Made by a program: the position numbers and the translations under genes
Assembly: GCF_001698225.1 (NCBI RefSeq)
Contig: NZ_CP016594.1
Coordinates: 2,108,001 to 2,172,000, forward strand
Length of the DNA: 64,000 nucleotides
Source: Gordonia terrae
GTDB lineage: Bacteria > Actinomycetota > Actinomycetes > Mycobacteriales > Mycobacteriaceae
Reading direction: 5' to 3'
Shown here: positions 13,861 through 63,999 of the stretch, piece by piece
Layout of the letters: each line of letters begins with the position of its first letter
Position numbering within the stretch: the stretch's first letter is position 1
The notes under the pieces: model-generated
The model's database searches: none
What the model was told of the DNA's origin: nothing
Seen by the model: the letters and a program-made list of their open reading frames with translations, nothing else

Positions 13861-13864
13861 CCGA

Positions 13865-45533: not shown

Positions 45534-46943
45534 TCAGAGGCCGACGACCCGCGCGGTGTCGGACCCGCCGCCGGGTTCGATGCCGTCGGCGTCCGCGAGG
45601 TCGACGCCGGTGCGCAAGGTCCGGATCAGTTCGTCGGTGAACGCGCGGATGGTGCGGTGGGCGGTCAGCGTGTCGGGGTGCCGGGCGCGCAGCGCCAGCC
45701 CGTCGCCGGTGCGCGAGATCCAGAACTGCGCATCGTCGGCGGTGGTCGCGTTCGAGATGTGGTGGGCGTCGATGACCCGATGGCGGTCCGCGCCGGGGAG
45801 CAGCCGGTAGTCGACGTAGGACACCATGAAGATGTCCGACCGGGTGCGGCGCAGTCCGCCCATCGCCTCGATGACCTGCGGAACGGGTACTTCGCCGAGC
45901 GTCACGGCCCGGCGCAGCTCGGGCCCGGTGCGCCGGATCGTCTCGATCAGGTCACCGGTGCTCACGACCCGTAGTGGTGCATTGGTGGTGAACCACCCGA
46001 TGGCAGTGCGCCACTTCTCTTCCCGACGTGTGTGCATCGGGAACAGCAGCGGCAGTTCGGGTCCGCCGCCGCAGCGGCGGACCGCGTCGGCCATCGCGGC
46101 CAGGGTTCCGCCGAACACGCTGGCGCCGTTGCGTCGGCACAGCTCGGCGAACAGCTCCGTCGCCGCCGGCCCGAGCAGCGTGCGCACCTCGGTGGCCTGT
46201 GCCGCGACGGCGCCGGGTTCGACCCCGAGGTCCAGGGGAAAGGTGGGCAGGGCGCCGTCCCGGTCGTCGAAGAAGCGGAGCCAGGCGCGCATCCGGGGAT
46301 CGGTCGGTGCGACCGTGGACGCCTGTGACTCGGCGGCGCAGAAGTCGACGAAGCTCCCGCTCATCGCGGTCTCCGCGGGATCGAAAGATGCTCCGTGGCA
46401 GCGATATCCCTCATACAGGCGATGCAGGTCGTCGATCACGATGGAGATCGAGTAGGCATCCACGTGGCAGTGGTCGAAGCCGCAGATGATCGTCGACGCG
46501 TCGGCGCGGTCGATCGCGGCGAACAGGTACGCGGGATGGCCGAAGGGGTGACACGCACGATCGAGCGTGTCGCGAAGCCGTTCGCGCAGAACGGTGTCGG
46601 AGGTCGTGTGGATCACGGTGTCGGCGCGGAGTACGAGGTCGTCCGGGTCGTGGGAATGCCGCCGGACCCCCTCCGGACCGGCCGAGAACGACGACCGCAG
46701 GGTGCCGTGTCGCGCGACGAGAGCGTGGTAGGCGGACCCGAGCGCCGCGCGGTCCACCCGGCCGCGGACGGTGAACGCGGCGGCCAGCCAGGTGCTCGAC
46801 TCACCGGCCGAGGCCAGGTGCACGGTCTGGTTGAACGACGGTGGGACATCGGAGATCTCGGACCGGGCGGTCGAGGTGTCCACGGACCAGGACAACAACT
46901 CGCCCGCAGGCGGGCAGTAGCGATCGATGGTGGTGACGTGCAC
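45534..46943 (-). CDS. PapA-type acyltransferase with HxxxDA motif
   Basis: 469-residue condensation-domain acyltransferase of the PapA group, likely transferring an acyl chain from CoA or a carrier to a glycolipid hydroxyl. The active-site loop reads FDHCHVDAYS: H158 and D162 are kept, but the usual glycine is A163. The N-terminus (MHVTTIDRYCPPAGELLSW) is the PapA type. Other pieces are PTFPLDLGVEPG and FPMHTRREEKWRTAIGWFTTNAP. The start is GTG at 46941-46943 with GAGGA upstream. It is third in the operon, six bases after the preceding acyltransferase. Confidence 0.85.
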   Translation of the reverse strand: MHVTTIDRYCPPAGELLSWSVDTSTARSEISDVPPSFNQTVHLASAGESSTWLAAAFTVRGRVDRAALGSAYHALVARHGTLRSSFSAGPEGVRRHSHDPDDLVLRADTVIHTTSDTVLRERLRDTLDRACHPFGHPAYLFAAIDRADASTIICGFDHCHVDAYSISIVIDDLHRLYEGYRCHGASFDPAETAMSGSFVDFCAAESQASTVAPTDPRMRAWLRFFDDRDGALPTFPLDLGVEPGAVAAQATEVRTLLGPAATELFAELCRRNGASVFGGTLAAMADAVRRCGGGPELPLLFPMHTRREEKWRTAIGWFTTNAPLRVVSTGDLIETIRRTGPELRRAVTLGEVPVPQVIEAMGGLRRTRSDIFMVSYVDYRLLPGADRHRVIDAHHISNATTADDAQFWISRTGDGLALRARHPDTLTAHRTIRAFTDELIRTLRTGVDLADADGIEPGGGSDTARVVGL

Positions 46944-46949
46944 TCGTCC

Positions 46950-48446
46950 TCACGCTCCTCTGCGCAGGGCCGTGGCCGCGGCCGGGTCGGATGGCCCTGA
47001 TGTCGCCGCCGGCCCACGGATCTGCCGGTCGCCGGCGCGCGCGATGTCGGCGATGACCGCGCGCAGATGGTCGTAGTAGGGGCGCGCCACGGACTCCGCG
47101 AACGGGGTGCCCGGGATCTGGCTGCCCAGGTAGAGCTCGTCATGGTCGCGGTTGATCCACGCCGACGCGTTGGCCGTCCGGCCCTCCCCGGTGAACAGCG
47201 CACCGCGCCGGAAGGCCTCCCGCGACGCACCGGGGAACCATCGGAAATCGATGTAGGAGAGGAGGTTCGGGGCGGTGATGATCGCATCCGGGGTGGCGCC
47301 CGCGGCGGCGATGGCGGCGAGCGCGGCCGCCACCGGCACCGTCGCGAGGTCGCGCGCGTGCCTGCGGGCCGTGTGGGCCGCCGGGATCAGCTCGGCGAAG
47401 GTCGACGCTCCGGCCAGGGCGAACGCCACCGGCGCGAAGGTGCAGAACCACCCCTGCGACGTGGCATACCCGTCGAGAGCGGCGCGGGTGTTGAACACCG
47501 TCATGCCGTAGTACTCGTCGGCGCCGGCCAGCTCTCGGTCGGTGATCGCGATGGCCGCGTAGATGCCGTCGATGAAACGGCCGCCCGCTGCTCGGCACGC
47601 GGCGTCGAAGGCGGTGATTCCGGCGCCGTCGAGGAGCGAGACCTCGACACCGGTCACCTGTGCGGTGTCGCCCGGAGCCAGGCCCAGGTCGAGGGGGAAC
47701 CGCGGCATCTGCAGGTCGTGCCTGCGGAAGATGTCCTGCCAGGCCCGGGTCTGGGGGGAACCCGCCAGATGCTGCGCGGTCGACTCCGCCTCGGCCGCGG
47801 CGTAGGTGAAGTAACCCCCGGCGGCCGGAGCCGGCTCGCCGGGCACCGCATGATCGGGCTCGTCGCCTCCGACCAGTTCCGCATAGATCTGCGCGATCTC
47901 GTCGAGCGCCAGGGCCTGTGACGCGCCGTCGGAGAGGGCGTGATCGCACGCCAGGAAGAGGGCGAAACCGCCGGGCCGGCTGATGGCTCCGAAGGCGAAT
48001 CCGGGAAAGGCGTCGCTGGAGGTCTCGCGGTCGAACCGGTCGATGAGGTACGGGTGCACATCGTCGGCCGTCTCCAGTCGGCGGTCGACGTGCCCCTCGA
48101 ATTCGACGGCGGCGGGATCGACGAGGTGGGCGGTGACGTCCCCGTCGCGGCATTCGAACCACGTGCGCAGCACCTCGTGACGCTGTACGAAGAGAGTCAG
48201 GGCGGTGCCCAGCGCCGCGGTGTCGAGGTCGCCGTCGATCTCGGTGCCCGATCCCAGGTATCCGCGATGCGTGCGCCCCGTGGCCCGGGCGACCGCTGCA
48301 CCGCGCACGTGGTTCTCGGCCAGGAAGGTGACGGGTGCCGCGTGGACGACCGCGCTCGCGGCGGCTTCGCGGCAGACCTCGGTCGGATCGAAGCGCACGG
48401 CTGTTCCAGGTTGCGGCCGCCAGTTGCCCATCGCCGTGATTCTCAT
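46950..48446 (-). CDS. PapA-type acyltransferase with canonical HxxxDG motif
   Basis: 498-residue condensation-domain acyltransferase, middle gene of the three-gene operon. The catalytic loop is ACDHALSDGAS with H169, D173 and G174, so all canonical residues are kept. Other PapA-like pieces are the N-terminal WRPQPGTAVRF, PRFPLDLGLAPGDT and QGWFCTFAPVAF. The ATG at 48444-48446 has a textbook GAGGAGGAAA site; longer upstream frames run inside the neighbour. It follows the 48463 gene by 16 bp. It could equally act on a diol or sugar; no substrate can be read from sequence. Confidence 0.87.
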   Translation of the reverse strand: MRITAMGNWRPQPGTAVRFDPTEVCREAAASAVVHAAPVTFLAENHVRGAAVARATGRTHRGYLGSGTEIDGDLDTAALGTALTLFVQRHEVLRTWFECRDGDVTAHLVDPAAVEFEGHVDRRLETADDVHPYLIDRFDRETSSDAFPGFAFGAISRPGGFALFLACDHALSDGASQALALDEIAQIYAELVGGDEPDHAVPGEPAPAAGGYFTYAAAEAESTAQHLAGSPQTRAWQDIFRRHDLQMPRFPLDLGLAPGDTAQVTGVEVSLLDGAGITAFDAACRAAGGRFIDGIYAAIAITDRELAGADEYYGMTVFNTRAALDGYATSQGWFCTFAPVAFALAGASTFAELIPAAHTARRHARDLATVPVAAALAAIAAAGATPDAIITAPNLLSYIDFRWFPGASREAFRRGALFTGEGRTANASAWINRDHDELYLGSQIPGTPFAESVARPYYDHLRAVIADIARAGDRQIRGPAATSGPSDPAAATALRRGA

Positions 48447-48462
48447 CGGGTTTCCTCCTCGA

Positions 48463-49911
48463 TCATGCGGGTCGGGCGTCGTCCATCGCGGCGGGGCCGG
48501 CGAAGGGCGCGCAGGTGTAGGAGGACAGGGGCAGGGCGGTGCCCTCGGTCGCGAGCGCCTGCAGGATCGACGAGTAGGTCGTGATGAGGTCACGGATGCT
48601 CGCGTCCGCCGGATCGTGGCCGGGGTGTCGTGCGGACACCGTGATCCCGCCGGGCACCCGTGCGATCCAGAGGTAGACCTCCCGGTCCGATCGCGACCCG
48701 CCGCGCAGGATCTGCGCCCTGGCCGCATCCCACTCGTCCGCCCCGGCGACGTGACGGATGTCCAGATACGACACGACGAACTCCGGTTCTCCTCCGACGC
48801 CCAGCAATTCGACGACGCGCTGGTAGGGGAACGACGGCAGGTGCCGGACCGCGTCGATCGCGGACGCCGTGGCGGCCAGGGCGTCGTCGAAGGTGCCCGC
48901 GCCGGAGAGGTCGATCTCGAGCGGAGCCAGCCCGACATACCAGCCCACCGATCCCGCGTACCGGGCCTCCGATCGTGTATGCATCGGCATGGTCAGTCGT
49001 AGCGTGTCGCGGCCGGTGAGGGTGCGCAGGGCGACCGCGAGGGCGGCGAACACGGCCGTCTGCGTTCCGTGTCCGCCTGCTCGGGCCGCGGAGCTCACGA
49101 AAGTCGCCAGGCGGTCGGTTGCCACGTATTCGGAGATTCCGCGCTGCCGCGGTGTGCGCGCCCGGTCCCGCGTCTGCAGGTGTGGGCGGACCAGCGGGAG
49201 GCCGATTCCCGGGGCGTTCGCGGAGTCGTCCAGGAATGTGCGCCATCGCGTGACGGCCGGATGCTCGGCGGTCATGCCGAGCCCCACCGCCCGGTCGTGG
49301 ACGCTGAAGTCGAGATGACTTCCGACAGCGGTCATCTCGGTGGACGTGCCCATCCGGGACGAGGTGTACAGGCGACGGATCTCGGTCATGCTCAACAGGA
49401 TCGAGTACGCATCCATGATCACGTGGTCGGCGGCGAAGGCGACGGTGACGCCGCGCGACGACTCGATGGTGGTCACGAGGCAGTGCGGCCAGCGTGTCGG
49501 CGCGAGTCCGGCGTCGAAGGTCTCGATGAGGAACTCGCGGACATCGTCCCCCGAGTCGAAGTCACCGGCGACCTCGGCATCGACGCCGAGATGGGCGCCG
49601 CGGTAGGTGCGACGCGCATCGGCGCTCGTCGGGTCGGACGTCGAGTGAAGCGCTTCGTGGCGCGTGAGCCACCGGCGCAGGCAGGTGTCGAAGCGTTCGA
49701 CGTCCAGATCGTTCTCGATCTCGAAAATCGCTCCCAGCCAGGAGTGTTCGTCCGAGGCGCCGTTGGCCGATCGCTGTATCGACGCCGACTGATCGTAGGT
49801 GAACGGGCGTGGATCCGGTTGCCAGCCCGAGGGATCCGTATGTGTGGTCGGCGTCCAGATCGTCACCGTCCCGGCAGGTACGGGGTAGTCGGACAGCTCG
49901 GTGAACTTCAT
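48463..49911 (-). CDS. PapA-type acyltransferase with HxxxDA motif
   Basis: 482-residue condensation-domain acyltransferase, first gene of the three-gene operon. The loop is FAADHVIMDAYS: H163 and D167 are present, and A168 replaces glycine. The N-terminus MKFTELSDYPVPAG is shared with the partial acyltransferase at the left edge, which has HxxxDG. The region LRLTMPMHTRSEARYAGSVGWYVGLAP is typical for the PapA channel domain. The ATG at 49909-49911 lacks a strong ribosome site, so a leaderless or hairpin-influenced start is possible. It lies downstream of the 567-bp divergent control region. Confidence 0.86.
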   Translation of the reverse strand: MKFTELSDYPVPAGTVTIWTPTTHTDPSGWQPDPRPFTYDQSASIQRSANGASDEHSWLGAIFEIENDLDVERFDTCLRRWLTRHEALHSTSDPTSADARRTYRGAHLGVDAEVAGDFDSGDDVREFLIETFDAGLAPTRWPHCLVTTIESSRGVTVAFAADHVIMDAYSILLSMTEIRRLYTSSRMGTSTEMTAVGSHLDFSVHDRAVGLGMTAEHPAVTRWRTFLDDSANAPGIGLPLVRPHLQTRDRARTPRQRGISEYVATDRLATFVSSAARAGGHGTQTAVFAALAVALRTLTGRDTLRLTMPMHTRSEARYAGSVGWYVGLAPLEIDLSGAGTFDDALAATASAIDAVRHLPSFPYQRVVELLGVGGEPEFVVSYLDIRHVAGADEWDAARAQILRGGSRSDREVYLWIARVPGGITVSARHPGHDPADASIRDLITTYSSILQALATEGTALPLSSYTCAPFAGPAAMDDARPA

Positions 49912-50478
49912 GCGCGGTGGTCCATTGCGTCGGTCATCCGTTCCCGGGCCGCGACACCATGCCATGCCGTTCTCGGCATGGCCCCCCGGCCCATGAGTTC
50001 TGATCTGTGACAACAGGAATCGCGCATACCACGATGCATGCGCGCGGCCCCGGACGACGCCTTCCGGAGGAACTCTCCGGGACCGAGCGCCGTGTCGACA
50101 CCGCCTGTGTCTGTAGCGAGCCTAAGTGCATGCGACGGGCGCGTGCAGTGGCACGGGCGCGTGACGTTCATCACCGAGGGGCAGTGTCGGCGTCGACGAT
50201 CCGGGCCGAAGAATCAGGGAAGTGAATTGTGTAACTTCATGTTTCGCTGAACGGCCGTTGCTCCATGAGGTCGGTGCCGAGTCTGATTGCGTTCATGTAA
50301 AGAACTGATGACAAGCCGCCGCCGTGCCCGGGTCGCTGCACCCAGGAATGCGTAGTCAGACGCCATGTCGACGAAAAACGTTGTCGGGCAGCGCCGGATA
50401 TCGTGATCGGTGCCGTTGCGGCACCCGGAACGCTCACCTACCGTGGGGCCGAAGTCGACCACACGCATCGGGGGTGCC
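49912..50478. promoter_or_regulatory. 567-bp divergent control region of the glycolipid locus
   Basis: No convincing gene lies here. Three structures are seen. A 9-bp stem (GCCATGCCG at 49961-49969, loop TTCT, CGGCATGGC at 49974-49982) stands about 50 bp upstream of the acyltransferase start. An 11-bp direct repeat ACGGGCGCGTG lies at 50135 and 50153, 18 bp apart. The segment from 50210 to 50310 is richer in AT than its surroundings. It must carry the promoters of the acyltransferase operon and of the ABC exporter operon. No sigma-factor site is convincing. Confidence 0.7.
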
Positions 50479-51480
50479 ATGTCCACGACCGTCCCGGCCA
50501 TCGAGGCCCGCGGTCTGACCAAGGAATTCGGCGGCGCACGGGCCGTCGACGCGGTCGATCTCGTCGTACCCGCCGGTGGCGTCTTCGCGCTGCTGGGAAC
50601 CAACGGCGCGGGTAAGACCACCACCGTGCGCATGCTGGCGACGCTGCTGCGCCCGGACTCCGGCGACGCCCGCATCTTCGGGCACGATGTCGTCGCGGAG
50701 GCGACGGCGGTCCGGTCGCTCATCGGGGTCACCGGCCAATACGCGTCCGTCGACGAGGATCTCACCGCCCGCGAGAACCTGATGATCTTCGGCCGACTGA
50801 TCGGCTCGTCGCGCCGCCGGGCACGCATCCGGGCCGACGAACTGCTGGACGAGTTCGGTCTCGGCACGGTCGCGACCCGGCGCGTGGGGCACTTCTCCGG
50901 CGGTATGCGCCGTCGCCTCGACCTCGCGGCGTCGCTGATCACACGTCCGCGCCTGCTCTTCCTCGACGAGCCCACCACCGGGCTCGACCCCCGCACGCGG
51001 GCACAGATGTGGCAGACGGTGCGCGACATGGTGGCGCGCGGATCGACCGTCCTGCTCACCACCCAATATCTCGACGAGGCCGATGAACTCGCCGATCACA
51101 TCGCGGTCATGGATCGGGGCCGGGTGGTCGCCGACGGGACGGCGGACGACCTGAAGGCCGGCGTCGGCGACATGAGTGTGCGACTCGAGCTCGCCGACGC
51201 CGACGATCTGACGGCGGCGGCCCAGGTGTGTGCGCCGTTCACCTCGAGCGGGGAGCCGACGATCGCTCGCCGCGAGGGGGTCCTCGTGCTGCCGATGGCC
51301 GACATCGACCCGCTCGCCGACATCCTCGGTGCTCTCCGCGCCCGTGGGCTCGCACTCACGTCGGTCAACGTGGTCCGGCCGACCCTCGACGAGGTGTTCT
51401 TCGCGCTGACCGACGGAGGCGACCCCACCCGAACCGCACCGGCTGCAGCGGAGATCGATTCGACGGGAGTGCGGGCATGA
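50479..51480 (+). CDS. DrrA-like ABC transporter ATPase
   Basis: 333-residue ABC ATPase of the daunorubicin-resistance (DrrA) type used to export drugs or complex lipids, including PDIM in mycobacteria. Walker A is GTNGAGKTT at 40-48, the signature FSGGMRRRL near 145, Walker B LLFLDEPTTGLDP, and the H-loop region LLTTQYLDEADEL. The C-terminal DrrA extension (about 230-333, ending VVRPTLDEVFFALTD) is the exporter type. The ATG at 50479 starts it. Its TGA overlaps the permease ATG (ATGA). It heads the exporter operon. Confidence 0.93.
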   Translation: MSTTVPAIEARGLTKEFGGARAVDAVDLVVPAGGVFALLGTNGAGKTTTVRMLATLLRPDSGDARIFGHDVVAEATAVRSLIGVTGQYASVDEDLTARENLMIFGRLIGSSRRRARIRADELLDEFGLGTVATRRVGHFSGGMRRRLDLAASLITRPRLLFLDEPTTGLDPRTRAQMWQTVRDMVARGSTVLLTTQYLDEADELADHIAVMDRGRVVADGTADDLKAGVGDMSVRLELADADDLTAAAQVCAPFTSSGEPTIARREGVLVLPMADIDPLADILGALRARGLALTSVNVVRPTLDEVFFALTDGGDPTRTAPAAAEIDSTGVRA

Positions 51481-52304
51481 GCACCGGTTCGCTGCACACG
51501 AACTCGCTTGCCGCCGAGCCCGCGCCCGAGCCCCCCGACCGGGTCCGGCCGACCGCGGCGGTGATGCAGTCCCTCACGATGACGCACCGGGGTCTGCTGA
51601 AGATCAAACACAATCCGCAGCAGCTGTTCGACGTCATCGTCCTGCCCATCGTGTTCACGGTCATGTTCTCCTCGATCTTCGGCGGGGCGATCGCCGGGAA
51701 CGTCGTGGGATATCTCCCGCTGCTGATCCCCGGGGTACTGGTCCAGGTGTGTGTCGCGGCGTCGGTGGTCACCGGCGTCCAGTTGCGCGAGGACCTCGAT
51801 CGCGGGGTCTTCGACCGGTTCAAGTCGCTGCCGATCGCGCGCATCGCACCACTGGCCGGCGCGCTGATGGCGAACACCCTGCGCTACGTGGTCGCCTCGG
51901 CCATCACGGTGTGCGTCGGGGTGATCATGGGATACCGGCCGGCGAGCCCTGTGGGTGTCGCGGTCGCGTGCGTCCTGATCGTGGTGGTGGCTTTCTCGTT
52001 GAGCTGGATCTTCGCGCTTCTCGGCGTGCTGCTCGACAAGGCGTCGACCGTCCAGGGTGTCTCGATGCTCGTGCTGATGCCGATCACCTTCGTCTCCAAC
52101 GCGCTCGTCCCGGTCGACACCATGCCCGGGTGGATGCAGGCCTGTGCGTCGGCGAACCCGGTCTCACATCTCGTGACGGCGGCGCGCGGACTGGCCGCCG
52201 GCGAGAACGTGGGGACCGACATCGTCTACACGCTTCTCGGCGCGGCGGCTGTCCTCGCCGTGGTGGTGCCGGTGACCCTGCGGACCTACATGCGGCGGAC
52301 CTGA
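51477..52304 (+). CDS. DrrB-like ABC-2 permease
   Basis: 275-residue ABC-2 type permease with six predicted helices. Typical DrrB features are the amphipathic N-terminal segment (MTHRGLLKIKHNPQQLFDVIVLPIVFTVMFSSIFG) and PITFVSNALVPVDTMPGWMQ with NPVSHLVTAARGL. It pairs with the overlapping ATPase; one permease gene is present, whereas PDIM export in mycobacteria uses two, DrrB and DrrC. So the complex would be a homodimer. Substrate is inferred from the surrounding acyltransferases and glycosyltransferases. Confidence 0.93.
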   Translation: MSTGSLHTNSLAAEPAPEPPDRVRPTAAVMQSLTMTHRGLLKIKHNPQQLFDVIVLPIVFTVMFSSIFGGAIAGNVVGYLPLLIPGVLVQVCVAASVVTGVQLREDLDRGVFDRFKSLPIARIAPLAGALMANTLRYVVASAITVCVGVIMGYRPASPVGVAVACVLIVVVAFSLSWIFALLGVLLDKASTVQGVSMLVLMPITFVSNALVPVDTMPGWMQACASANPVSHLVTAARGLAAGENVGTDIVYTLLGAAAVLAVVVPVTLRTYMRRT

Positions 52305-52349
52305 GTGTCCGCGCCGATGACCGATCGATCAGCGCGAGGAGCAGACACC

Positions 52350-53228
52350 ATGAGCACGCCGATCACCTTCTCGGTGGTGGTACCGGTCTACAACGAGGAG
52401 GACACGATCGGCGAGTGTCTCGCCCGGTTGGCGGCACAGTCCGACCGGATCACCGAGATCGTGGTGGTGGACAACAATTCGACCGACGGCAGCCGTGCGG
52501 TGATCGACGCCTGGCGTTCGACTCACCCGTGGATCCGCGTGATCGACGAGGCCCGACAGGGGCTGGTGTACGCGCGGAACTCCGGACTCGATGCCGCGAC
52601 GGGAGATCTCGTCGCCCGCATCGACGCCGACACCCGGGTGCCTCCGGACTGGGCGAGCACGATCGTGGAGTTCTTCGCCGCCGACGTCGGGGAGGACTGG
52701 GCGGCACTGTGCGGGCGAGGGGAGGCCTACGACGTGCCCCTGGCCGGACGATTCGACCGGTGGAAGACCCGCCTGCACCCGCTGAACCGGTTGCGGCGCG
52801 AGAAGCCCGTGACCGAAGTGCCGGTGCTCTACGGCTCGAACATGGTGCTGCGGCGCACGACCTGGGCGGCGATCCGGGACCTGGTCAGCACGCGCCGGAA
52901 CATCTTCGAAGACGTGGACATGGGGCTCTGCGTGAGTGACGCGGGCGGGCGCAACGCCTTTCTCCGCGCGCTGACCGTCGGGGTGTCGCCGCGTCGGATG
53001 GAGACCGGCATGGTGCCGTTCGTCCACTACATGAGCTTCCTCCCGCGAACGTTCCTGCTGCATCGGCGCTTCGGGCTGGCAGCCGGCGCGGCGGCGGTCT
53101 ATGTGCCCGCGATCGCGGTCGCGCACGCGATGCGTCTCGTCGTGCTGCGGTCCTATGACTCCCGGACGGGTCGGATCGATCCGCGAAACCTGCTGCGGGG
53201 CGGTGGTTCCGATCGTGTCCTGCCGTGA
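52350..53228 (+). CDS. Family 2 glycosyltransferase
   Basis: 292-residue GT2 (GT-A fold) enzyme. It begins TFSVVVPVYNEEDTIGECLARL, then IVVVDNNSTDGSRAVI, LVARIDADTRVPPDW (DxD metal site, D-A-D) and FEDVDMGLCVSDAGG (acid pair). The C-terminus holds a hydrophobic segment (AAAVYVPAIAVAHAMRLVVL) that may attach it to the membrane. The ATG at 52350 has GAGGAG eight bases upstream; GTG at 52305 is an alternative that directly follows the permease. It probably adds a sugar to the exported lipid or its precursor on the inner face of the membrane. Confidence 0.9.
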   Translation: MSTPITFSVVVPVYNEEDTIGECLARLAAQSDRITEIVVVDNNSTDGSRAVIDAWRSTHPWIRVIDEARQGLVYARNSGLDAATGDLVARIDADTRVPPDWASTIVEFFAADVGEDWAALCGRGEAYDVPLAGRFDRWKTRLHPLNRLRREKPVTEVPVLYGSNMVLRRTTWAAIRDLVSTRRNIFEDVDMGLCVSDAGGRNAFLRALTVGVSPRRMETGMVPFVHYMSFLPRTFLLHRRFGLAAGAAAVYVPAIAVAHAMRLVVLRSYDSRTGRIDPRNLLRGGGSDRVLP

Positions 53229-53253
53229 TCGCGGGAGTCCGCCCGCCCCGGGA

Positions 53254-54582
53254 TCAGCCGGCGCGCCGACGCGTGGCCGGCGTCGAGACCGTCTGTTCGA
53301 CGATGTCGGCCGCCGACCGTATGGCCTCGGCAGGGGGTACGAGCCGGTCGCGGAGATGGGCGGATCGCCCACGCGTGTCCGCGTCCAGGATTCGGTCGAG
53401 TGTCCGGGTCAGCGACTCCGCGGTCACTCGCGCCATCGGCAACGTGGCGCCCACCCGCGCGCTGCTCAGGGCCCGTCCCCAGATCGGCTGATCGGCTCCG
53501 ACCCAGGTGACCAGGGTGGGCAGTCCGGCGCGCAGGCCCGCCGCCACCGACCCGGCGCCGCCGTGATGGACCGCGGCACGGCACCGCGGCAGTACGGCGT
53601 CGTGATCGACGTGCCCGACCACGCGCACGGCGTCCCCGGATATCGATGCGTCCGAGACGGATTCGCTCGACATGAAACCGCTCCAACCGCCCGACACCAG
53701 CAACCTGATCCCGAGCCGCCGCGCCGCGGTTCGGAATGCGTCGGCCAGGCCGTCGGGGTCGGCCGGCAACATGCTGCCGAAGCCGACGTACACCGGGGCG
53801 TCGCCGGCGTCGAGCCAGTCGGCGAGGCTTCCCGGTCCCGACTCGTCATCGAGTCCGGCATCACCCACCCCGGCTCGTTGCGGTGCGGCGAGAGTGAAGA
53901 ATCCGACCAGCGGCCGACGCCGGCCCCACTGCGTCGTGAGGCTCTCGAAGAGGGCCGGATCATAGGCCTGGATCTCGGGAACCCCGGTGCGGGAGATGAG
54001 TTCGGCGTAGGGGCGGGCCAGGGGGGACAACCCCAGGTCGGATCGCAGGGTGTTCTCGGCCGAGCGGGTGGCGAGCCAGAGGGCTCGCTCGGCGACCCGC
54101 CAGCTCAGGTCATTGATCGCCGCCGGCGCATCGATGCCGAGGTGGGCGAGCAGGGACACCGAGCCGTTGCGTCGAATGGGGCAGTAGTGCAGCGGGATGT
54201 GGGGGATCCCGAGGACCGCCGAGACATTGTGGGCGCGTTCCTGACCCGCGCTGCTCGCGACGAGCGCATCCGCCCCGTCGGCGAGTTCGAGCAGGCGTTG
54301 CTGCATCACTCGGCCGCCGCGCACCGACATGGCCGACACCGCGCGCAACCGGGTGCGCGGGTTCTTGGACCGCATGTCCTCGCGTACCAGATCCGAGGCC
54401 AGCAGGTCGCGCGTGCTCGCACCGTAGGCCTCGGTGGGAATGCCTGCGCCGCTGCCGAATCCGACCAGATCGGGTGGCGCGGCGAGGGTCACCCCGTGGC
54501 CGCGTCCCAGGAGTTCGGCGGCGAGGGCGACGGCCGGCTGGACATCGCCGCGGCTGCCGTTGACCGCGATCACGAACCTCAA
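53254..54582 (-). CDS. GT1-type glycosyltransferase (UGT/GtfA-like)
   Basis: 442-residue GT-B glycosyltransferase of the family including mycobacterial glycopeptidolipid and phenolic glycolipid enzymes. The N-terminal NGSRGDVQP (8-16), GFGSM at 267-271, HHGGAG at 339-344 and DQPIWG at 364-369 are the nucleotide-sugar signatures. The start is TTG at 54580-54582, giving MRFVIAVNG, with GAGGGG upstream. It is divergent from the GT-acyltransferase operon and convergent with the GT2 gene. Homology suggests transfer of a deoxyhexose or hexose to a lipid acceptor; the sugar is not known. Confidence 0.92.
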   Translation of the reverse strand: MRFVIAVNGSRGDVQPAVALAAELLGRGHGVTLAAPPDLVGFGSGAGIPTEAYGASTRDLLASDLVREDMRSKNPRTRLRAVSAMSVRGGRVMQQRLLELADGADALVASSAGQERAHNVSAVLGIPHIPLHYCPIRRNGSVSLLAHLGIDAPAAINDLSWRVAERALWLATRSAENTLRSDLGLSPLARPYAELISRTGVPEIQAYDPALFESLTTQWGRRRPLVGFFTLAAPQRAGVGDAGLDDESGPGSLADWLDAGDAPVYVGFGSMLPADPDGLADAFRTAARRLGIRLLVSGGWSGFMSSESVSDASISGDAVRVVGHVDHDAVLPRCRAAVHHGGAGSVAAGLRAGLPTLVTWVGADQPIWGRALSSARVGATLPMARVTAESLTRTLDRILDADTRGRSAHLRDRLVPPAEAIRSAADIVEQTVSTPATRRRAG

Positions 54583-54616
54583 CGTCGAACCCCTCGCGTG
54601 TCGGTGTGGTCGGATG

Positions 54617-54646
54617 GGCGACCGATTCTAAACACGACCGGTCGCC
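54617..54646. promoter_or_regulatory. Inverted repeat in divergent glycosyltransferase promoter region
   Basis: GGCGACCG at 54617-54624 and CGGTCGCC at 54639-54646 form an 8-bp perfect inverted repeat with a 14-base, AT-rich spacer (ATTCTAAACACGAC). It lies in the 104-bp gap between divergent glycosyltransferase genes, so it may be an operator or part of overlapping promoters. No regulator gene is adjacent. Confidence 0.45.
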
Positions 54647-54686
54647 GCGGCGCGCGGCCCGAGACGCGGATCACCGGGACGGTGTC

Positions 54687-56072
54687 ATGAGGATCTCGTT
54701 CGTCATCAACGGAACCCGCGGGGACGTCCAACCGGCATCGGTGCTGGCGAGGGCGCTCGCACTCCGTGGCCACGATGTGCGTCTCGCGGTGCCGCCCAAC
54801 ATGGTCCGGTCCGCCCGGACCTGGGCGGACGGCGCCGTGCGGCCGGAGGTCGTGCCGCTCGGCCAGGACACGCGTGCCCACCTCGAGATGGTGGCACGGG
54901 CCCGCGCTCAGGCTGGGCGTCACCCGCTGCGACGTCTGCGCGTCCTGCTGTCGCTGCGAAACGCCGGATGGGACCACCTCGTCACCGACATGGCAGCGGT
55001 CGTCGACGGAGCGGACGTCATCGTGACCGGGTTGATCACCGAGCAGCCCGCGCTCGCCTTCGCCGAATCGGCCGGTGTCCCGTTGGTGTCGATCCACCAC
55101 GCCCCCGTACGCCGCAACCACCGGGTCGGCCCTGTTCCCGGCCGGCTTCCGGGCGGCCCCCGTGCCGTCCGCGCGCAATGGGTCGCCTACGACGCCGTTT
55201 TCGGGCTGCTCACCAGGCGACGGGAGCGTCGCCTCCGCGCCGCACTGGGTTCGACCGGGACGTCAGAGCCCTACTCCGCTCGACTGCGGGCGGCGGCGGG
55301 TCGGGAGTTGCAGGCCTACGACCCGTTGTTCGGAGTGCCCGACGACCGGTCCGGACCGCACGATCGGTTGTGGGTCGCCGACTCGACGGCTCGCCCGCGA
55401 CCGACGGTGGGGTTTCTCGGGTTGCCCGTGGACTGTCCGGTCACCGGCTCCGACGCACTCGCGTCCTGGCTCGACGCCGGCGACGCCCCGGTCTACGTGG
55501 GTTTCGGCAGCATGCCGTTGCGGGGAGAGGAGAGCATCCTGCGCGCCGTCGCAGAGCTCGGCCGCCGGCTCGGTCGTCGGGTTCTGGTCTGTGCCGGCTG
55601 GTCCGAACTGGGCGCCGAGGTGCGCAGCGGTGTGGAGTCCGACGCGGTGCGGGTCGAGACCCAGGTCGACCACCGCACGGTCTTCGGCCGGTGCGCGGTC
55701 GTGGTCCACCACGGGGGCGCCGGGACCACCGCGGCCGTGCTGCGCGCCGGCCGGCCGTCGGTGATCTGCTGGTACGGCGCGGATCAGCCGTTCTGGGGTG
55801 CCGAACTCGAACGGCTGGGTGTCGGCGTGTCGATGCCGATGGCCCGTGTGGGACGTGACCTGGACGTGGATCGGCTGTGCGATGCCGTCGCGGCGATGCT
55901 CGACCCCGCGGTCGCCGATCGGGCCGCGCGACTGACGACGGTCCTGGTGAGCGAGGACGCGGCGCTGGTGGACGCCGTGCACGCGGTCGAGAGTTCGGTG
56001 ACAAGCTCATGCACGAGGGAACCGTGTTCGCGGGGACCGCAGACGCGTAGCGGAACGAAGGTGGACGTATGA
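54687..56072 (+). CDS. GT1-type glycosyltransferase, first gene of GT/acyltransferase operon
   Basis: 461-residue GT-B glycosyltransferase similar to the 53254 gene. NGTRGDVQP opens it (8-16); VYVGFGSM, VVHHGGAGTTAAVLRAG and GADQPFWG follow. The first domain differs in the acceptor region (HHAPVRRNHRVGPVPG), so the lipid acceptor is likely different. A Cys/Ser/Arg tail (SSCTREPCSRGPQTRSG) ends it. The ATG at 54687 matches the conserved start; the stop overlaps the next ATG (ATGA at 56069-56072). Confidence 0.92.
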   Translation: MRISFVINGTRGDVQPASVLARALALRGHDVRLAVPPNMVRSARTWADGAVRPEVVPLGQDTRAHLEMVARARAQAGRHPLRRLRVLLSLRNAGWDHLVTDMAAVVDGADVIVTGLITEQPALAFAESAGVPLVSIHHAPVRRNHRVGPVPGRLPGGPRAVRAQWVAYDAVFGLLTRRRERRLRAALGSTGTSEPYSARLRAAAGRELQAYDPLFGVPDDRSGPHDRLWVADSTARPRPTVGFLGLPVDCPVTGSDALASWLDAGDAPVYVGFGSMPLRGEESILRAVAELGRRLGRRVLVCAGWSELGAEVRSGVESDAVRVETQVDHRTVFGRCAVVVHHGGAGTTAAVLRAGRPSVICWYGADQPFWGAELERLGVGVSMPMARVGRDLDVDRLCDAVAAMLDPAVADRAARLTTVLVSEDAALVDAVHAVESSVTSSCTREPCSRGPQTRSGTKVDV

Positions 56073-57547
56073 CGACGATGCAGTCGCACGCGGGAGGACG
56101 ACCCGAGGGCGAGCGGGCGGCCGGGGCAGAGCGGGGCGTGCGTGGCCTCGCGACACGCGTACGCGCCGAGGGGTCGGCGATCCGGGGCGACCGGCTGACC
56201 TCGGAAGACGCCCCGTTCTGGTTCGTCACACCGGCACTCGGCTGGTCGGTCGTGCTCCAGCTGGTCTGGGTGTTCGACGAGGAGGTCTCGATCGAGGCAC
56301 TCACCGCGATGAACGCGGCACTGGCGCGCGGTCGGCTGAACCGCATGCTCGTCGTGCCGGATGTCCGCGGGGCGCGTCCGCGCTGGGTCGACGCGCCCGA
56401 CGCACCCGGACTGGCAGCCGACAGCCAGCCGGTGTCGGAGACGGAGATCGACGAGTGGGCGACCGCCGAGATGTCCGCTGTTCCTCTCGATGCCGAAGGT
56501 GGGCGGTGCTGGCGATTGCGGTCGGTCCCCACCGCGGACGGCGGCACCGTGGTCTCCCTGTGCGCCCTGCACGTGGTCACCGACGGTCGTGGCATGCTCG
56601 CGGCCGCAACCGAGGCCGCCGAGGCCTCGGCGGTGCCGCTCGACCCCGCGTCCGGTCCCGGGGCCGCGGCGGCCGACGAGCCGACCCTCCCGTCGGTGTC
56701 GTGGCGTCGCCGGCGGGCCGGCGATGTCGTGGATGCCGGGTCGCAGGTCGTGGCGGTCGTCGCCGGACTCGCCCGGGCGGCACTCGAACAGCGCAAGGCC
56801 GGCGGCCCCGAACCCGACCCGCGCCCGGCCCGGCCCCCGATCGCCGAACGGTCGCCCGCCGCCGAGTTCACCTGGGCCACCGCAACCGTGCCGGCGGCGG
56901 ACTTCGACCGGGTCGCCGCCGAACACGACGGCACCGCCAACACCCTGTTCATCGCCGTGGTCAGCGGCCTGTTGCGCTCGAGTGGCCATGCACCGCTGCC
57001 GAATCCGATCAAGGTCGGGGTTCCGGTGGACCGTCGCGAGAGCGAGGCGGACACCAGGTCCAATCCGATCGCGGGCGTGTCGGTGTACCTGACCGACGAG
57101 CCGGTCGCCGGCGGCGACCTCGGCGGCATCAGGTCCGCGTGCAAGGCGGCCTTCGTCCGCCTGTCCGAGGGCCGGCGGGCCCCGCACATCCATCTGCGAC
57201 CGCTGGCCTGGTTCCTGCCGCCGGCCGTGATCGTCAAGATCGTCAGCGCCGGCAACGGGATTCCCGACGCGGTGATCTCCAACCTCGGTGACGTGCCGCC
57301 CGCGGCGACGGTGCTGGGGGGCAGGCCGGCGCGCAAGATCGCCTTCCGCGGAATGGCGCAGGGCGTCGACGCCTCGGCGGGACAGCGATTCGGCGACGGG
57401 GTCCAGTCGTGGCTCGTCCGCACGCGGGACCAGGTGACCTTCACCGTGCTGGGCTGCGACGAGACCAGTTTCTCCTCCGACGCCGTCGTCGCGGACCTGC
57501 TCGACCGTGAACTGACGGCGTGGGGGCTGCCCCACGAGATCTGGTGA
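56069..57547 (+). CDS. Acyltransferase-superfamily protein (WS/DGAT-like, HxxxDG)
   Basis: 492-residue protein of the condensation/wax-ester-synthase-like superfamily. The HxxxDG loop is LHVVTDGRG with H168, D172 and G173. A C-terminal SNLGDVPP segment (ISNLGDVPPAATVLGG) recalls the SN-x-PGP region of WS/DGAT enzymes. Residues 180-265 form a Pro/Ala/Arg-rich insertion. It belongs to a different subgroup from the PapA proteins at 45-50 kb. The ATG overlaps the glycosyltransferase stop. I infer acylation of the sugar added by the neighbouring glycosyltransferase, but a structural role without catalysis is possible. Confidence 0.82.
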   Translation: MTTMQSHAGGRPEGERAAGAERGVRGLATRVRAEGSAIRGDRLTSEDAPFWFVTPALGWSVVLQLVWVFDEEVSIEALTAMNAALARGRLNRMLVVPDVRGARPRWVDAPDAPGLAADSQPVSETEIDEWATAEMSAVPLDAEGGRCWRLRSVPTADGGTVVSLCALHVVTDGRGMLAAATEAAEASAVPLDPASGPGAAAADEPTLPSVSWRRRRAGDVVDAGSQVVAVVAGLARAALEQRKAGGPEPDPRPARPPIAERSPAAEFTWATATVPAADFDRVAAEHDGTANTLFIAVVSGLLRSSGHAPLPNPIKVGVPVDRRESEADTRSNPIAGVSVYLTDEPVAGGDLGGIRSACKAAFVRLSEGRRAPHIHLRPLAWFLPPAVIVKIVSAGNGIPDAVISNLGDVPPAATVLGGRPARKIAFRGMAQGVDASAGQRFGDGVQSWLVRTRDQVTFTVLGCDETSFSSDAVVADLLDRELTAWGLPHEIW

Positions 57548-57579
57548 CCCATCGAACCCGGTGATACCGAGGAGAACAC

Positions 57580-58953
57580 ATGACTGCAACGGTGACCGAC
57601 ATCCCACCCGCCCAGGTGCTTCGCGTGACGGGCCCCGACGAGTCCTATCTGCTCGTGGCGGAACTGTTCGGGATGGGTGCCCCGATCCAGATCACGTGGG
57701 TCTTCGACGACGATCCGGGGGATGAGGCGATCGACTCGCTGCGGGCCGGCCTCGCGGCCGGACCGCTGCACCGTGCCGTGTCCCGTCGTCGGGTCCCGTT
57801 CGCCCGCCACCGCTGGGTTCGGTCGCCGCATCCGGCGCAGGCCGGGCGGGTGGCGGTCGTCGACGCCGACAGGGTCGGGGAATGGGCCGATTCGGTGCTC
57901 CGCGCGAGTCGTCTCGATCCCGTGCACGGGTCCGGATGGCAGCTCGACTCGGCGCGGATCACCGGCGGCGGCCGTGCGGTGTCGTTGCTCGCCTCCCACA
58001 TGATCACCGACGGCCACGGTCTGTACCGGCTGGTGGCCGACGCGGCGGCAGGGCGGACCGCGAGCCTTCCCACGACCGGCAGCGGACGCTCCTGGGACGC
58101 CGTGCGCGCCGATGCCGCCGACGCCGCGCTGTCGATACGGGCCGCCGCGCGATCCGTGGGGATTCTGCTCCGCGAGGCCCGGGCGGCGCGGTCTGCCCGC
58201 TCCGGCGACGACCAGGCCGATCCGCGGTCCGCACGAACAACCCCGAGGCGGGTCCCACCAGGGTCCGACCCGGACACGACGCTGGCGACAGTCGACGTCT
58301 CGGCGACCGAGTGGGCCGCGCGCGCCGCGGAACACGGCGGCACCGGAAACTCGTTGTTCACTGCGCTCCTGGCCGGGATCGTGCACCGTTCGGGTCGTCC
58401 GCTCGACGGCCCGATGACGGTGTGCATCGCGGTCAGCACGAGAGACGGCGACGACGACCACCGCGCCAACGCATCGGGCGGGGTGTGGGTCCGGATCGCC
58501 GATCCCGTCGAACCGGGCTCCGACCTCACCACCATCCGGTCGTCGAGCAAGCGGGCCTTCGTCGAGTACGCCGAGTCCGGTGGCGATCAGGCAGCCGACA
58601 ACCTCCAGCCGATCGTTCGCATGTTGCCGCGGCGACTCATCGGCCGGCTGATGCGCGCGATCCCGGGACCCGACACGACCGTGTCGAACCTGGGGACGAC
58701 CCCGGAGTCGGCGTTGCGCATCGGCGGCCGCACCGCGTCCCGGTTCGCCATCCGAGCGGTCATGCAGGGCATGCCCGCGCAGGAGCGGCGGGTACGCGGT
58801 CCGGCGATCGCCGCCTGGGCGGTCACCTACGGCGACACGGTCACCCTCACCTTCTTCGGCATCGACCCCGACCACTTCGGCGACGCCGGGCGGTTGCGCA
58901 CCCTGATCGCCGACGAGCTGACCGCCTGGCGGGTCGGGCACCGGTTCTGGTGA
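57580..58953 (+). CDS. Acyltransferase-superfamily protein (WS/DGAT-like, HxxxDG)
   Basis: 457-residue paralogue of the preceding gene. Both share the start region (VFDxDP/E...), an HxxxDG loop (SHMITDGHG; H140, D144, G145), a variable Ala/Arg-rich insertion after it, the VSNLGTTPE motif and similar ends (ELTAWRVGHRFW here, ELTAWGLPHEIW before). So a tandem duplication followed by divergence is evident. The ATG at 57580 is 32 bp after its neighbour and has a GAGGAG site. Its stop overlaps the GTG of the next glycosyltransferase (GTGA). Confidence 0.83.
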   Translation: MTATVTDIPPAQVLRVTGPDESYLLVAELFGMGAPIQITWVFDDDPGDEAIDSLRAGLAAGPLHRAVSRRRVPFARHRWVRSPHPAQAGRVAVVDADRVGEWADSVLRASRLDPVHGSGWQLDSARITGGGRAVSLLASHMITDGHGLYRLVADAAAGRTASLPTTGSGRSWDAVRADAADAALSIRAAARSVGILLREARAARSARSGDDQADPRSARTTPRRVPPGSDPDTTLATVDVSATEWAARAAEHGGTGNSLFTALLAGIVHRSGRPLDGPMTVCIAVSTRDGDDDHRANASGGVWVRIADPVEPGSDLTTIRSSSKRAFVEYAESGGDQAADNLQPIVRMLPRRLIGRLMRAIPGPDTTVSNLGTTPESALRIGGRTASRFAIRAVMQGMPAQERRVRGPAIAAWAVTYGDTVTLTFFGIDPDHFGDAGRLRTLIADELTAWRVGHRFW

Positions 58954-60248
58954 CGGCGCACCACATCTCGATCGTCCTGTACGGCAGTCGGGGCGACATC
59001 CAGCCGGGGGTCTGTCTGGCCCTCGAACTGCAGGCGCGCGGCCATCGCGTCAGCGTCCTCGTCCCGCCGAACCTCTCCGGCCTCGCGCGGGCCACCGGGG
59101 TCGGGGACGTCCACGAGATCGGCCTCGACTCCGATGCGGCATGGTCGTCGGATGGCGCGCGGTCGGCGCGCTCGAGTCGTAACCCGCTGGCGCGGATCGC
59201 ATTCGCGCTGCGCACCGTCCGAGGCGGATTCGACGCCCTCGACGCCGACCTCGAGCGTCTGTTCGTCCCGGAGTCGGCGCCGCTGCACGGCACCGGTCTC
59301 CTCGTCGCCGCGCCACTGTGCCAGGACCGCGTGATCGCTGTGGCCGAACACCTGGGCGTCCCGCTGACCGTGCTGCGATACGGCCCGATGTCGGAGAATG
59401 GACTCATCGGTGCCGTGCCCGGCCTCACCGAACGATGGTCACCGGCCGCCAAGCGCCGGTCCTGGCGCGTCGCCGACCGGCTGACCTGGGCCGCGACCGG
59501 TTGGAACGAGAACCGCTTCCGGCGCCGGATCGGACTCCGCCCGAGCCGAGGGCCGCTGCCGTGGCGTCTGGTCGCCGACCGAACCCCGCAGATCCAGGCC
59601 TACGACGCGGAGATGGTGCCGGGTCTCGCCGCCGAGTGGGACGACCGCAGACCCCTTGTCGGTTTCTTCGACCTCCCGGCGTCGAGCCGGCCCGGCATCG
59701 CCGAGATCGGCGCGGACACAACCGAACTCGCCGAGTGGCTGGACGCCGGCGAGCCGCCGCTGTTCCTCACCTTCGGCAGCATGCCGATCCTCGACCCGCA
59801 CACGCTGGTCGCACGCTGGCGTACCGCTGCGCGTGCGCACGGGGTGCGGTGCCTCATCGCCATGGGAGAAGCGACCGGCATCGACCCCGACGACCCCGAT
59901 GTCTTCCACACCGCCGGCGTCGACCACGCGTCGGTGCTACCGCGGTGTGTCGCCGCGGTCCATCACGGCGGCGCCGGGACCACCGCGGCCGGCCTGCGGG
60001 CCGGACTCCCGACCCTCGTCTGCGCGGTCACCGCCGATCAGCCCTTCTGGGGCGAGCGGGTCCGGGCGCTCGGTGTGGGGGCGACCGTCCGGCTGTCGAC
60101 GTTCACCGACGAGGATGCACACGCGGGCCTGCGAACCGTACTCGCCGCCGAGACCCGTTCGGCGGCCGCTGCATTCGCGCGAAGGATGACGTCCCCGGAC
60201 AAGTCCGTCGCCGCCGCGGCCGACATCTGCGAATCCCGGCTGAGATGA
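58950..60248 (+). CDS. GT1-type glycosyltransferase, last gene of operon
   Basis: 432-residue GT-B glycosyltransferase. GSRGDIQP at 12-19 opens the acceptor domain; TFGSM, VHHGGAGTTAAGLRAG and TADQPFWG are the donor-domain motifs. Together with the 53254 and 54687 genes it gives three GT1 enzymes with distinct acceptor domains, enough for a short oligosaccharide. The GTG at 58950 overlaps the acyltransferase stop. A strong stem-loop follows at 60260-60297 and ends the locus. Confidence 0.92.
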   Translation: MTAHHISIVLYGSRGDIQPGVCLALELQARGHRVSVLVPPNLSGLARATGVGDVHEIGLDSDAAWSSDGARSARSSRNPLARIAFALRTVRGGFDALDADLERLFVPESAPLHGTGLLVAAPLCQDRVIAVAEHLGVPLTVLRYGPMSENGLIGAVPGLTERWSPAAKRRSWRVADRLTWAATGWNENRFRRRIGLRPSRGPLPWRLVADRTPQIQAYDAEMVPGLAAEWDDRRPLVGFFDLPASSRPGIAEIGADTTELAEWLDAGEPPLFLTFGSMPILDPHTLVARWRTAARAHGVRCLIAMGEATGIDPDDPDVFHTAGVDHASVLPRCVAAVHHGGAGTTAAGLRAGLPTLVCAVTADQPFWGERVRALGVGATVRLSTFTDEDAHAGLRTVLAAETRSAAAAFARRMTSPDKSVAAAADICESRLR

Positions 60249-63300: not shown

Positions 63301-63999
63301 GGCCCGGCGGACGATGTCCTGGTAGGCGGTGTAGAACTCGGCGAAACCCATCGTCTCGCACTGCTTGATCGCAGCGACGACCAGCGTGCGGTTGCCGTCC
63401 TTGCCGACCAGGTCGATGGCCAGACCCAGGTTGGTGTGTGCGGGCGTGACGACGTTGGGCTTCCCGTCGATCTCGGCGAAGTGCCGGTTCATGTTCGGGA
63501 ACGCCTTGATGGCCTGAACGATCGCGTAACCCAGGATGTGGGTGAAGCTGATCTTGCCGCCGCGGGTACGCGCGAGGTGGTTGTTGACGACGATCCGGTT
63601 GTCGATCATCGCCTTGGCGGGCACGGCCCGGACGCTGGTGGCCGTCGGGATCTCCAACGACAGCGCCATGTTCTTCGCGATGGCCGCGGCGGGACCGCGC
63701 AGCACCTTGTTGCCATCGGCGTTCTCGGACTTCTGGCCTTCGGACGCGCTCGCCTTGCCTGCTTCCGGCTTGGTGGGCTTGGGCTGCGATCGCGCCGAAC
63801 CGTCGCGACTGGCGACGCTGTGGCCCGATGCGGCCTTCGTCGCGGTGGACTCCTTGGCGGGGGCGGGCTTGCGCGGCGCGGTGCGGGCGGGCGTCTGATC
63901 CAGGGTGACCTGCTTGCGCGGTGCGGCCTCCGCGGCCGGTGCGGACGCGCTGCGCGCGGACCCGTTGGTCGATGAACTCGAGGACGAGGAGGTGGTGGA
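60310..63999 (-). CDS. kgd: Multifunctional 2-oxoglutarate enzyme Kgd (5' end off window)
   Basis: Partial: 1229 residues are visible and the N-terminus lies beyond the right edge. Kgd combines 2-oxoglutarate dehydrogenase/decarboxylase E1 with an E2-like succinyltransferase domain, linking to the TCA cycle. An Ala/Ser/Pro/Lys linker (from the edge to about 63715) is followed by the E2-like domain ([21 protein letters not shown]) and the ThDP-dependent E1 part ([56 protein letters not shown]). The C-terminus reads [12 protein letters not shown]...[17 protein letters not shown] short stretch at 60703-60724 equals the intergenic 36-bp repeat core and adds residues AGSGASGS before the [21 protein letters not shown] segment. 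Confidence 0.96.

Follow-up and report, generated by a model that had tools for sequence, protein, structure and literature searches.

An accessory acyltransferase-glycosyltransferase gene cluster of Gordonia terrae, a candidate for the synthesis and export of acylated oligosaccharide lipids

Results

Gene content of the cluster

The cluster described here consists of 11 uninterrupted open reading frames between a tetR regulator gene and kgd, at positions 45534-60248 of a 64-kb stretch of Gordonia terrae DNA (the window, whose coordinates are used below); the host genome is a single contig of 5.70 Mb. It encodes three PapA-type and two wax ester synthase/diacylglycerol acyltransferase-like (WS/DGAT-like) acyltransferases, three glycosyltransferases (GTs) of the GT1 type, one GT2 enzyme and a DrrAB exporter pair, and its genes form four blocks: papA_c-papA_b-papA_a running leftwards, drrA-drrB-gt2 rightwards, gtA leftwards and gtB-wsA-wsB-gtC rightwards. 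A preliminary description of the window had proposed this same set of enzymes and exporter, and the domain, family and fold evidence, together with the open frames, bears it out. The genes of the region are 88-99% identical to those of Gordonia lacunae, and the G+C fraction is 0.709 in the cluster versus 0.693 on its left side and 0.672 on its right side.

The three PapA-type proteins, encoded on the minus strand by papA_a (45534..46943, 469 residues), papA_b (46950..48446) and papA_c (48463..49911, 482 residues), all contain the Pfam Condensation domain PF00668 (E-values of 4e-15, 3e-14 and 1.8e-18, respectively). The start listed for papA_b, which would give 662 residues, lies too far upstream, and the protein has about 498. 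When their profiles were searched against 177,635 distinct chain sequences of the PDB at E-values up to 0.01, the trehalose-2-sulfate acyltransferase PapA2 (6aef) was the top match of papA_a (7e-45), papA_b (1.5e-54) and papA_c (1e-46), followed by condensation domains at 3e-19, 2e-11 and 1e-18. PapA5 was not among these matches for any of the three profiles; PapA1 and PapA3 were not among them either. The HxxxD motif is kept in the family alignments of all five acyltransferases of the cluster, in the form H-x3-DA in papA_a (9/9 aligned) and papA_c (11/11) and H-x3-DG in papA_b (11/11).

The two other acyltransferases, wsA (56069..57547) and wsB (57580..58953), lie on the plus strand. With 31 bits (E-value of 1e-7) against a cut-off of 310, wsA falls outside the curated WS/DGAT model TIGR02946; its predicted structure (pLDDT, the per-residue model confidence, of 76) has the AzeD dehydratase (5e-17) as its top match, ahead of condensation domains and of the wax ester synthase 6chj (5e-15), and wsA is thus predicted to have a WS/DGAT-like fold, not being a filed member of that family. 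The wsB protein itself gave no domain match and its predicted model is poor (pLDDT of 54), and its placement follows from its homology to wsA, the two families being alignable over 435 columns (hhalign probability 100, E-value of 5e-69), and from the weak TIGR02946 matches of two of the 11 members of its family; one of the 11 also matches PF03007, at 9e-4. Both proteins belong to the WS/DGAT-like part of the Condensation/PapA superfamily.

The GT2 enzyme is encoded by gt2 (52305..53228, plus strand; PF00535, 6e-32). The GT1 proteins gtA (53254..54582, minus strand), gtB (54684..56072, plus strand) and gtC (58950..60248, plus strand) all carry the EryCIII-like_C domain PF06722, with E-values of 8e-16, 9e-11 and 6e-13, the latter two obtained on longer frames. 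In a tree of GT1 proteins gtC forms one clade of 12 rows; the gtA and gtB labels need four and three changes, so that these two names are loose outside Gordonia. The nearest solved matches of gtC are glycosyltransferases acting on aglycones such as sterols and vancomycin. In Nocardia callitridis a gtA-like GT1 and a GT2 are fused in a single chain; the contig encoding it has the same length (508991) as that of the wsB- and papA_c-like proteins of this species.

Of the exporter genes, both on the plus strand, drrA (50479..51480) encodes an ATPase that passes the DrrA subfamily cut-off (TIGR01188, 343 versus 312 bits). The permease gene drrB (51477..52304) gives a good match to the ABC-2 domain PF01061 (7e-26) and, despite this, stays below the cut-offs of the DrrB-family models (79 versus 147 bits and 69 versus 223 bits), its E-value for the DrrB family TIGR00025 being 4e-22. 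These matches bear on the idea that the locus modifies a surface polysaccharide or lipoarabinomannan, an existing cell-wall glycan being altered and DrrAB exporting a lipid-linked repeat. A GT2 with an ABC-2 exporter would suit such a role, and lipoglycans are reported for Gordonia in PMC4365757; however, drrA lies above the DrrA cut-off, drrB reaches the DrrB type at 4e-22 and the capsule model KpsM at only 0.006, polymerase, ligase and sugar-nucleotide genes are absent from the cluster, and five acyltransferases would be many for a polysaccharide. We therefore regard this role as improbable.

The genes papA_c and drrA diverge from an intergenic region of 567 bp (49912..50478) with a G+C fraction of 0.64 versus 0.71 in the cluster, which is a probable promoter region. 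It can be aligned in blocks with the corresponding regions of G. lacunae and Gordonia 'Campus', has no 12-mer in common with five more distant loci and contains no consensus promoter. A promoter and terminator scan gave one promoter-like and three terminator-like sites, at or near chance level. No Rfam match was obtained between 38000 and 64000, and no tRNA gene was found in the 64-kb window.

The preliminary description had also claimed that the window lacks polyketide synthase (PKS), nonribosomal peptide synthetase (NRPS), FadD, MmpL and methyltransferase genes. Pfam bears this out for the cluster genes, the flanking genes and ten other large frames, which is less than the whole 64 kb; in the same genes, the PKS, NRPS, FadD or MmpL components of the loci for phthiocerol dimycocerosates and phenolic glycolipids (PDIM/PGL), glycopeptidolipids (GPL) and di- and polyacyltrehaloses (DAT/PAT) were not found.

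Conservation of the gene set across genera

Conserved co-occurrence of the acyltransferases with the glycosyltransferases and the exporter had been put forward in the preliminary description as a check to be made, and the combination does recur in related genomes. A search of 61 genomes with gt2, followed by comparison of 20-kb stretches around the matches (loci and genomes are designated below by L and G numbers), yielded orthologues in nine further Gordonia, at 61-79% identity. The ten Gordonia stretches formed by these nine and G. lacunae all contain papA_b, papA_c, drrA, drrB, gt2, wsA, wsB and at least one GT1 gene; papA_a was not seen in two of them (L061 and L062). Two arrangements are found: type I keeps the gene order of the window, with two to four GTs, and in type II, seen in G. 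polyisoprenivorans and two more, the order is different and gt2 and gtC are the only GTs. There are four GTs in G. lacunae, three in G. insulae and G. aichiensis, and two in G. soli and G. polyisoprenivorans. In a scan of contigs with gt2, 22 of 24 loci were dropped as distant GT2 matches from other groups, only L034 and L035 belonging to the set.

Beyond Gordonia, the wsB profile, which also detects wsA, found strong relatives (E-values up to 1e-65) in 79 of 401 genomes of the family and nine of 31 genera. The same modules are present in Williamsia sterculiae (L109), Millisia brevis (L110), R. trifolii (L104, L118), R. corynebacterioides (L087 with L101; L088) and R. fascians (L115). The cluster is a conserved unit recurring in Gordonia, Williamsia, Millisia and Rhodococcoides, and since the same genes are found together in other genomes their grouping is not due to chance. 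The parts are common singly; the recurring feature is their combination. Family searches gave 84 wsB, 127 papA_c and 2446 gtA family proteins.

Genes were counted over 30 related loci, one per genome and two for the window genome, some of which end at the edge of a stretch. Between four and six acyltransferases were found in 25 of the 30, whereas the number of GTs ranges from 0 to 4, and it is thus the sugar chain that probably varies most between species. The five exceptions are the edge-cut L096 and L104, L108 with nine acyltransferases in two triads, and L092 and L094 with two each. The small loci of genus g24 (L092-L094) consist of one PapA, one GT1, one WS-like gene and drrAB.

In a PapA tree of 91 rows, 89 of them distinct because the overlap of L087 and L101 repeats two, the a, b and c rows each fall on one side of a branch, with SH-aLRT supports of 99, 100 and 100. 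Among 31 loci compared, the order c-b-a on one strand is kept in all 24 in which the three genes were seen. It is not universal, as order or strand differs in the more distant L151, L152 and L155, which, like L153, stand outside the tree. One of these, L152 (G417:C5:396001-416000; genus g27, genome of 2.2 Mb), has papA_b, papA_c, papA_a and one WS-like gene next to the gene for the RNA polymerase beta subunit, with no GT by similarity, and is perhaps a minimal acyltrehalose set.

Other loci contain related genes. The window genome has a second locus (G000:C1 at about 1163000-1172000; L113, 1155001-1175000, genes at about 8751-17060) with one GT1, one WS-like gene, a PapA c-b-a triad and an esterase of PF00756, the family of the mycolyltransferases; the locus may serve a second trehalose-type lipid. 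The same genome has a single PapA-like gene at G000:C1:2416248-2417651 and, at about 4334000-4372000 of G000:C1, a giant NRPS that is rich in Condensation domains and encoded in one frame of 13,451 residues. In L149 (G070:C1:2566001-2586000; genus g23, probably Mycobacterium), PKS, PapA, three WS-like, methyltransferase, GT1 and MmpL genes are adjacent.

Chromosomal sites of the cluster

The preliminary description had presented the locus as an accessory insertion between corA and kgd. The right-hand border is indeed kgd (60310..63705, minus strand), whose product has four 2-oxoglutarate dehydrogenase-type domains. On the left, corA (39916-41346) is separated from the TetR gene by a short-chain dehydrogenase/reductase gene and a flavin-containing monooxygenase gene, and the real insertion point lies between tetR (44828..45529, plus strand) and kgd. 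Of 59 Gordonia genomes, 57 have a match to tetR, and the gene is found at the site also where the cluster is absent. It is, like kgd, a flanking core gene outside the cluster, and was for this reason rejected as the regulator of the cluster.

Of the 57 genomes matched by tetR, the 30 with the best loci were surveyed: the tetR-kgd site is occupied in seven, partly occupied in six and empty in 16, one (G021) remaining without call. In six of the occupied sites papA_a adjoins tetR, and the seventh (G017) was recognized by alignment of the window genes. In the 16 empty sites kgd follows tetR directly or closely, six of them having a gap of about 1.3 kb with room for a small gene. The locus is therefore accessory, as had been supposed, and has been gained or lost at this site.

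The partial sites hold wsA in G022, G014, G705 and G018, an edge-cut piece of wsA in G002, and gtB with wsA nearby in G019; the order tetR-wsA-kgd was confirmed on fuller stretches in G705 and G022. In the Gordonia stretches L111, L112, L126, L128 and L129, wsA, or gtB with wsA nearby, lies in the tetR-kgd interval or adjoins tetR. The lone wsA, or gtB with wsA, of several Gordonia is apparently a remnant left after loss of the other genes; since wsA aligns over its full length in L111 and L112, it may also have a use of its own. Sites of this kind, parts only in six of the 30 loci and, in G705 and G022, a tetR-kgd interval with wsA as its only gene, are what a mixed or decaying collection of paralogues with no common product would give; but full sets stand in several genera at different chromosomal places with the triad order the same in 24 of 24 loci, which makes such a collection very improbable.

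The cluster occupies different sites in different genera, as its neighbours differ. In G. insulae and G. soli the tetR-kgd site is empty and the cluster lies at another place. In Rhodococcus sp. G-MC3 (G338) and R. corynebacterioides it adjoins rhodanese and biotin carboxylase genes, a carboxyltransferase gene lies beside it in R. fascians and on its other side in R. corynebacterioides, and the Tsukamurella locus is placed between carboxyltransferase, Maf and biotin carboxylase genes. We take these carboxyltransferase and biotin carboxylase genes to be accD5 and accA3. In G. terrae that neighbourhood (biotin carboxylase - papA - sufE - rhodanese - Maf - carboxyltransferase) forms the left end of the window (1-6063), some 40 kb away from the cluster, with the rhodanese gene at 1341-2369 and the carboxyltransferase gene at 4435-6063. 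The sole member of the set present there is an orphan papA_c'-like gene between the biotin carboxylase gene and sufE, which is seen in part at 1..893 (minus strand) and continues to the left of the window. It is 37% identical to papA_c' of R. fascians, and its arrangement, biotin carboxylase - papA - sufE - rhodanese, is that of Rhodococcus sp. G-MC3. It is possible that this gene supplies a further acyltransferase of the system in trans.

Relation to known lipid producers

Oligosaccharide lipids have a glycosylated trehalose backbone according to PMC4365757, which reports a succinic trisaccharide lipid for R. fascians NBRC 12155, a pentasaccharide succinic octaester for Nocardia corynebacteroides SM1 (its Table 3) and tri- and tetrasaccharide esters for Tsukamurella tyrosinosolvens DSM 44370. 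R. corynebacteroides is given as the former Nocardia corynebacteroides in PMC9233653. The genomes of R. fascians and R. corynebacterioides both have the PapA triad, the WS pair and at least one GT together. The R. fascians locus (G667, L115) combines four PapA, two WS-like and one GT1 gene at one place; it holds four of the six free-standing Condensation proteins of that genome (E-values up to 1e-8), the rest of the 42 Condensation matches lying in frames of at least 1,189 residues. By similarity, which GTs of other families would escape, it has one GT, and three genes on its right side are not GTs by Pfam; both R. corynebacterioides loci have three GTs each, and eight flanking genes of G103 scanned by Pfam are not GTs. 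Trehalose extended by one sugar per GT would thus give three sugars in R. fascians and five in R. corynebacterioides, in agreement with the reported lipids. If GT counts were dealt randomly among the 30 loci, both fits would arise with a chance of about 0.09, a rough estimate, as incomplete stretches and related genomes are among the 30.

A papA_c-family match is present in all 16 Tsukamurella genomes. The set of the Tsukamurella locus differs: PapA_C-type proteins (PF16911) occur in it, with three of them in L164, together with a single GT1, a single WS-like and a single PapA_c-like protein. It is a candidate locus for the oligosaccharide lipids known from Tsukamurella. By similarity, L159, L160, L163 and L164 each show one GT1 and the fifth genome (L161, L162) shows none, Pfam having covered eight genes in L164, four in L159 and seven in L161. 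As a law, the rule that the number of sugars equals two plus the number of GT genes was rejected, since it fits two of the three producer taxa.

A further producer, of di- and trisaccharide lipids, is Rhodococcus sp. I2R, whose contig 9 carries papA3-papA1-papA3-papA3 with start spacings of 1478, 1434 and 2911 (PMC8396431, from the published list). The corresponding spacings are 1483/1446/2941 in L097, which the I2R genes fit, 1459/1434/2947 in L091 and 1567/1432/2945 in the R. fascians locus L115. The largest trisaccharide tetraester of I2R, as we read Table 3 of PMC8396431, has six acyl groups including succinate, a number equal to that of the acyltransferases of the R. fascians locus; this likeness was spotted post hoc.

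Discussion

From its gene sequences, we consider it likely that the cluster makes and exports a non-polyketide acylated oligosaccharide lipid, the core of which is most likely trehalose. A multi-acylated oligosaccharide lipid, made with no PKS or NRPS on a borrowed core, had been suggested in the preliminary description and is supported here, with the core now refined to trehalose. The three PapA proteins all have PapA2 as their best match of solved structure, which favours trehalose as acceptor, as a relation and not as an assay. We infer the substrates, the order of the steps, the product and its export as follows. Trehalose would be supplied by primary metabolism, and the GT2 together with the three GT1 enzymes would extend it in the cytosol, using nucleotide sugars. 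The three PapAs and the two WS/DGAT-like proteins would esterify the sugars with the acyl groups of acyl-CoA, and DrrAB would export the product through the plasma membrane, either to the mycolic outer membrane or into the medium, for a role as a surface lipid or biosurfactant. Synthesis in the cytosol before export is proposed by analogy with DAT, which is made by PapA3 and then translocated in an MmpL10-dependent manner (PMC4183827).

Several observations weigh against this proposal. No trehalose gene was seen in the cluster, and the donor and acceptor sugars are unreadable from the GT1 and GT2 sequences. The parts are of ordinary occurrence in the order, papA_b-like proteins (E-values up to 1e-60) being present in 73 of 397 genomes and ws-like proteins (E-values up to 1e-30) in 56 of 397. 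No GT was seen near the PapA triads of L090, L151, L152, L153 and L155, and in the Mycobacterium-like locus PapA, WS-like and GT1 genes are joined to PKS, methyltransferase and MmpL genes, so that the parts alone do not fix the product. The Tsukamurella GT count is one short of the two needed for a tetrasaccharide, and producer strains and sequenced genomes match at the species level only. DrrAB was not found in the examined stretches of the R. fascians and R. corynebacterioides loci; the ABC pair, suggested as the exporter in the preliminary description, is not universal in the family.

The acceptor might also be another lipid-linked or polyol core, such as a diol, glycerol, a phosphatidylinositol mannoside or a glycopeptidolipid-like aglycone, decorated by the GTs and acyltransferases. 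The aglycone-glycosylating enzymes nearest to gtC would agree with this, as would the many NRPS genes elsewhere in the genome and the fact that the DrrAB-type exporter of Mycobacterium tuberculosis serves PDIM, a diol lipid. The mycobacterial PDIM/PGL locus combines a PapA-family acyltransferase, GT1 enzymes and a DrrAB-type exporter, and the Gordonia cluster resembles it in all three. It differs in that PKS and FadD were not found in the Gordonia cluster, and in that its PapAs are PapA2-like and not PapA5-like. As PapA2 is the best match of all three PapAs with PapA5 not listed, as PKS and NRPS were not found in or beside the cluster, and as the R. fascians and R. corynebacterioides loci belong to species reported with trehalose-core lipids, we hold a core other than trehalose to be unlikely.

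For a trehalose core, the closest comparisons are the following. With the succinoyl di- and trisaccharide lipids of R. fascians and I2R, the likeness lies in the R. fascians locus, with its PapA triad and papA_c', two WS-like genes and one GT1; the Gordonia cluster, unlike the R. fascians stretch with one GT and no DrrAB found, has four GTs and DrrAB. In the list of PMC8396431 the I2R papA genes are putative, and WS-like and GT genes are not described there as one cluster with them. For the octaester of N. corynebacteroides SM1, R. corynebacterioides has the PapA triad, two WS-like genes, a GT2, two GT1 and, in G103, papA_c'; unlike in Gordonia, gtC and DrrAB were not found in the examined stretches, and eight esters are reported versus the six acyltransferases seen in G103. 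The DAT/PAT system of M. tuberculosis is similar in that a PapA-type enzyme acylates trehalose in the cytosol before export, but it uses Pks3/4, FadD21, Chp2 and MmpL10 (PMC4183827), none of which is in the Gordonia cluster. A PapA-like acyltransferase, TlsA, is likewise needed for the succinoyl trehalose lipid of Rhodococcus sp. SD-74, and has about 30% similarity to the I2R PapAs (PMC8396431).

Applied to G. terrae, the count rule would perhaps give a lipid of at most six sugars bearing five acyl groups, a sixth being added if the orphan papA_c'-like gene takes part. The bolder statement, that this is the first gene family for these lipids, in which an acylation module (the PapA c-b-a triad and the WS pair) is joined to varying numbers of GTs, which set the chain length, and that the G. 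terrae product is a new hexasaccharide lipid (trehalose extended by four sugars) with five or, if the orphan gene takes part, six acyl groups, exported by DrrAB, is tentative and at present rather doubtful. To call the locus undescribed, as the preliminary description did, was too strong, since the lipid class is in print (PMC4365757) and PMC8396431 already lists four papA genes, from a similarly spaced locus of Rhodococcus sp. I2R, as putative genes for glycolipids. Chemical descriptions of the oligosaccharide lipids made by Rhodococcus, Nocardia and Tsukamurella go back to 1989, and PMC4365757 and PMC9009618 list several glycolipid biosurfactants of Gordonia with no structure; PMC9009618 lists Gordonia genes by annotation. 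In the open-access literature, most subscription papers lying outside the search, we found no gene set assigned to oligosaccharide lipids, nor Gordonia glycolipid gene sets beyond such lists. The lipid class is known, as are the enzyme families; what looks new is the gene family with its modular make-up, and the version of it found in Gordonia.

In conclusion, the locus gives candidate enzymes for each sugar and acyl group of lipids that are of interest as biosurfactants and antiviral agents (PMC8396431), and it predicts producer genera and species as well as a sugar count that can be checked by mass spectrometry. More generally, the family suggests a route by which mycolic-acid bacteria may build complex surface lipids without polyketide synthases.

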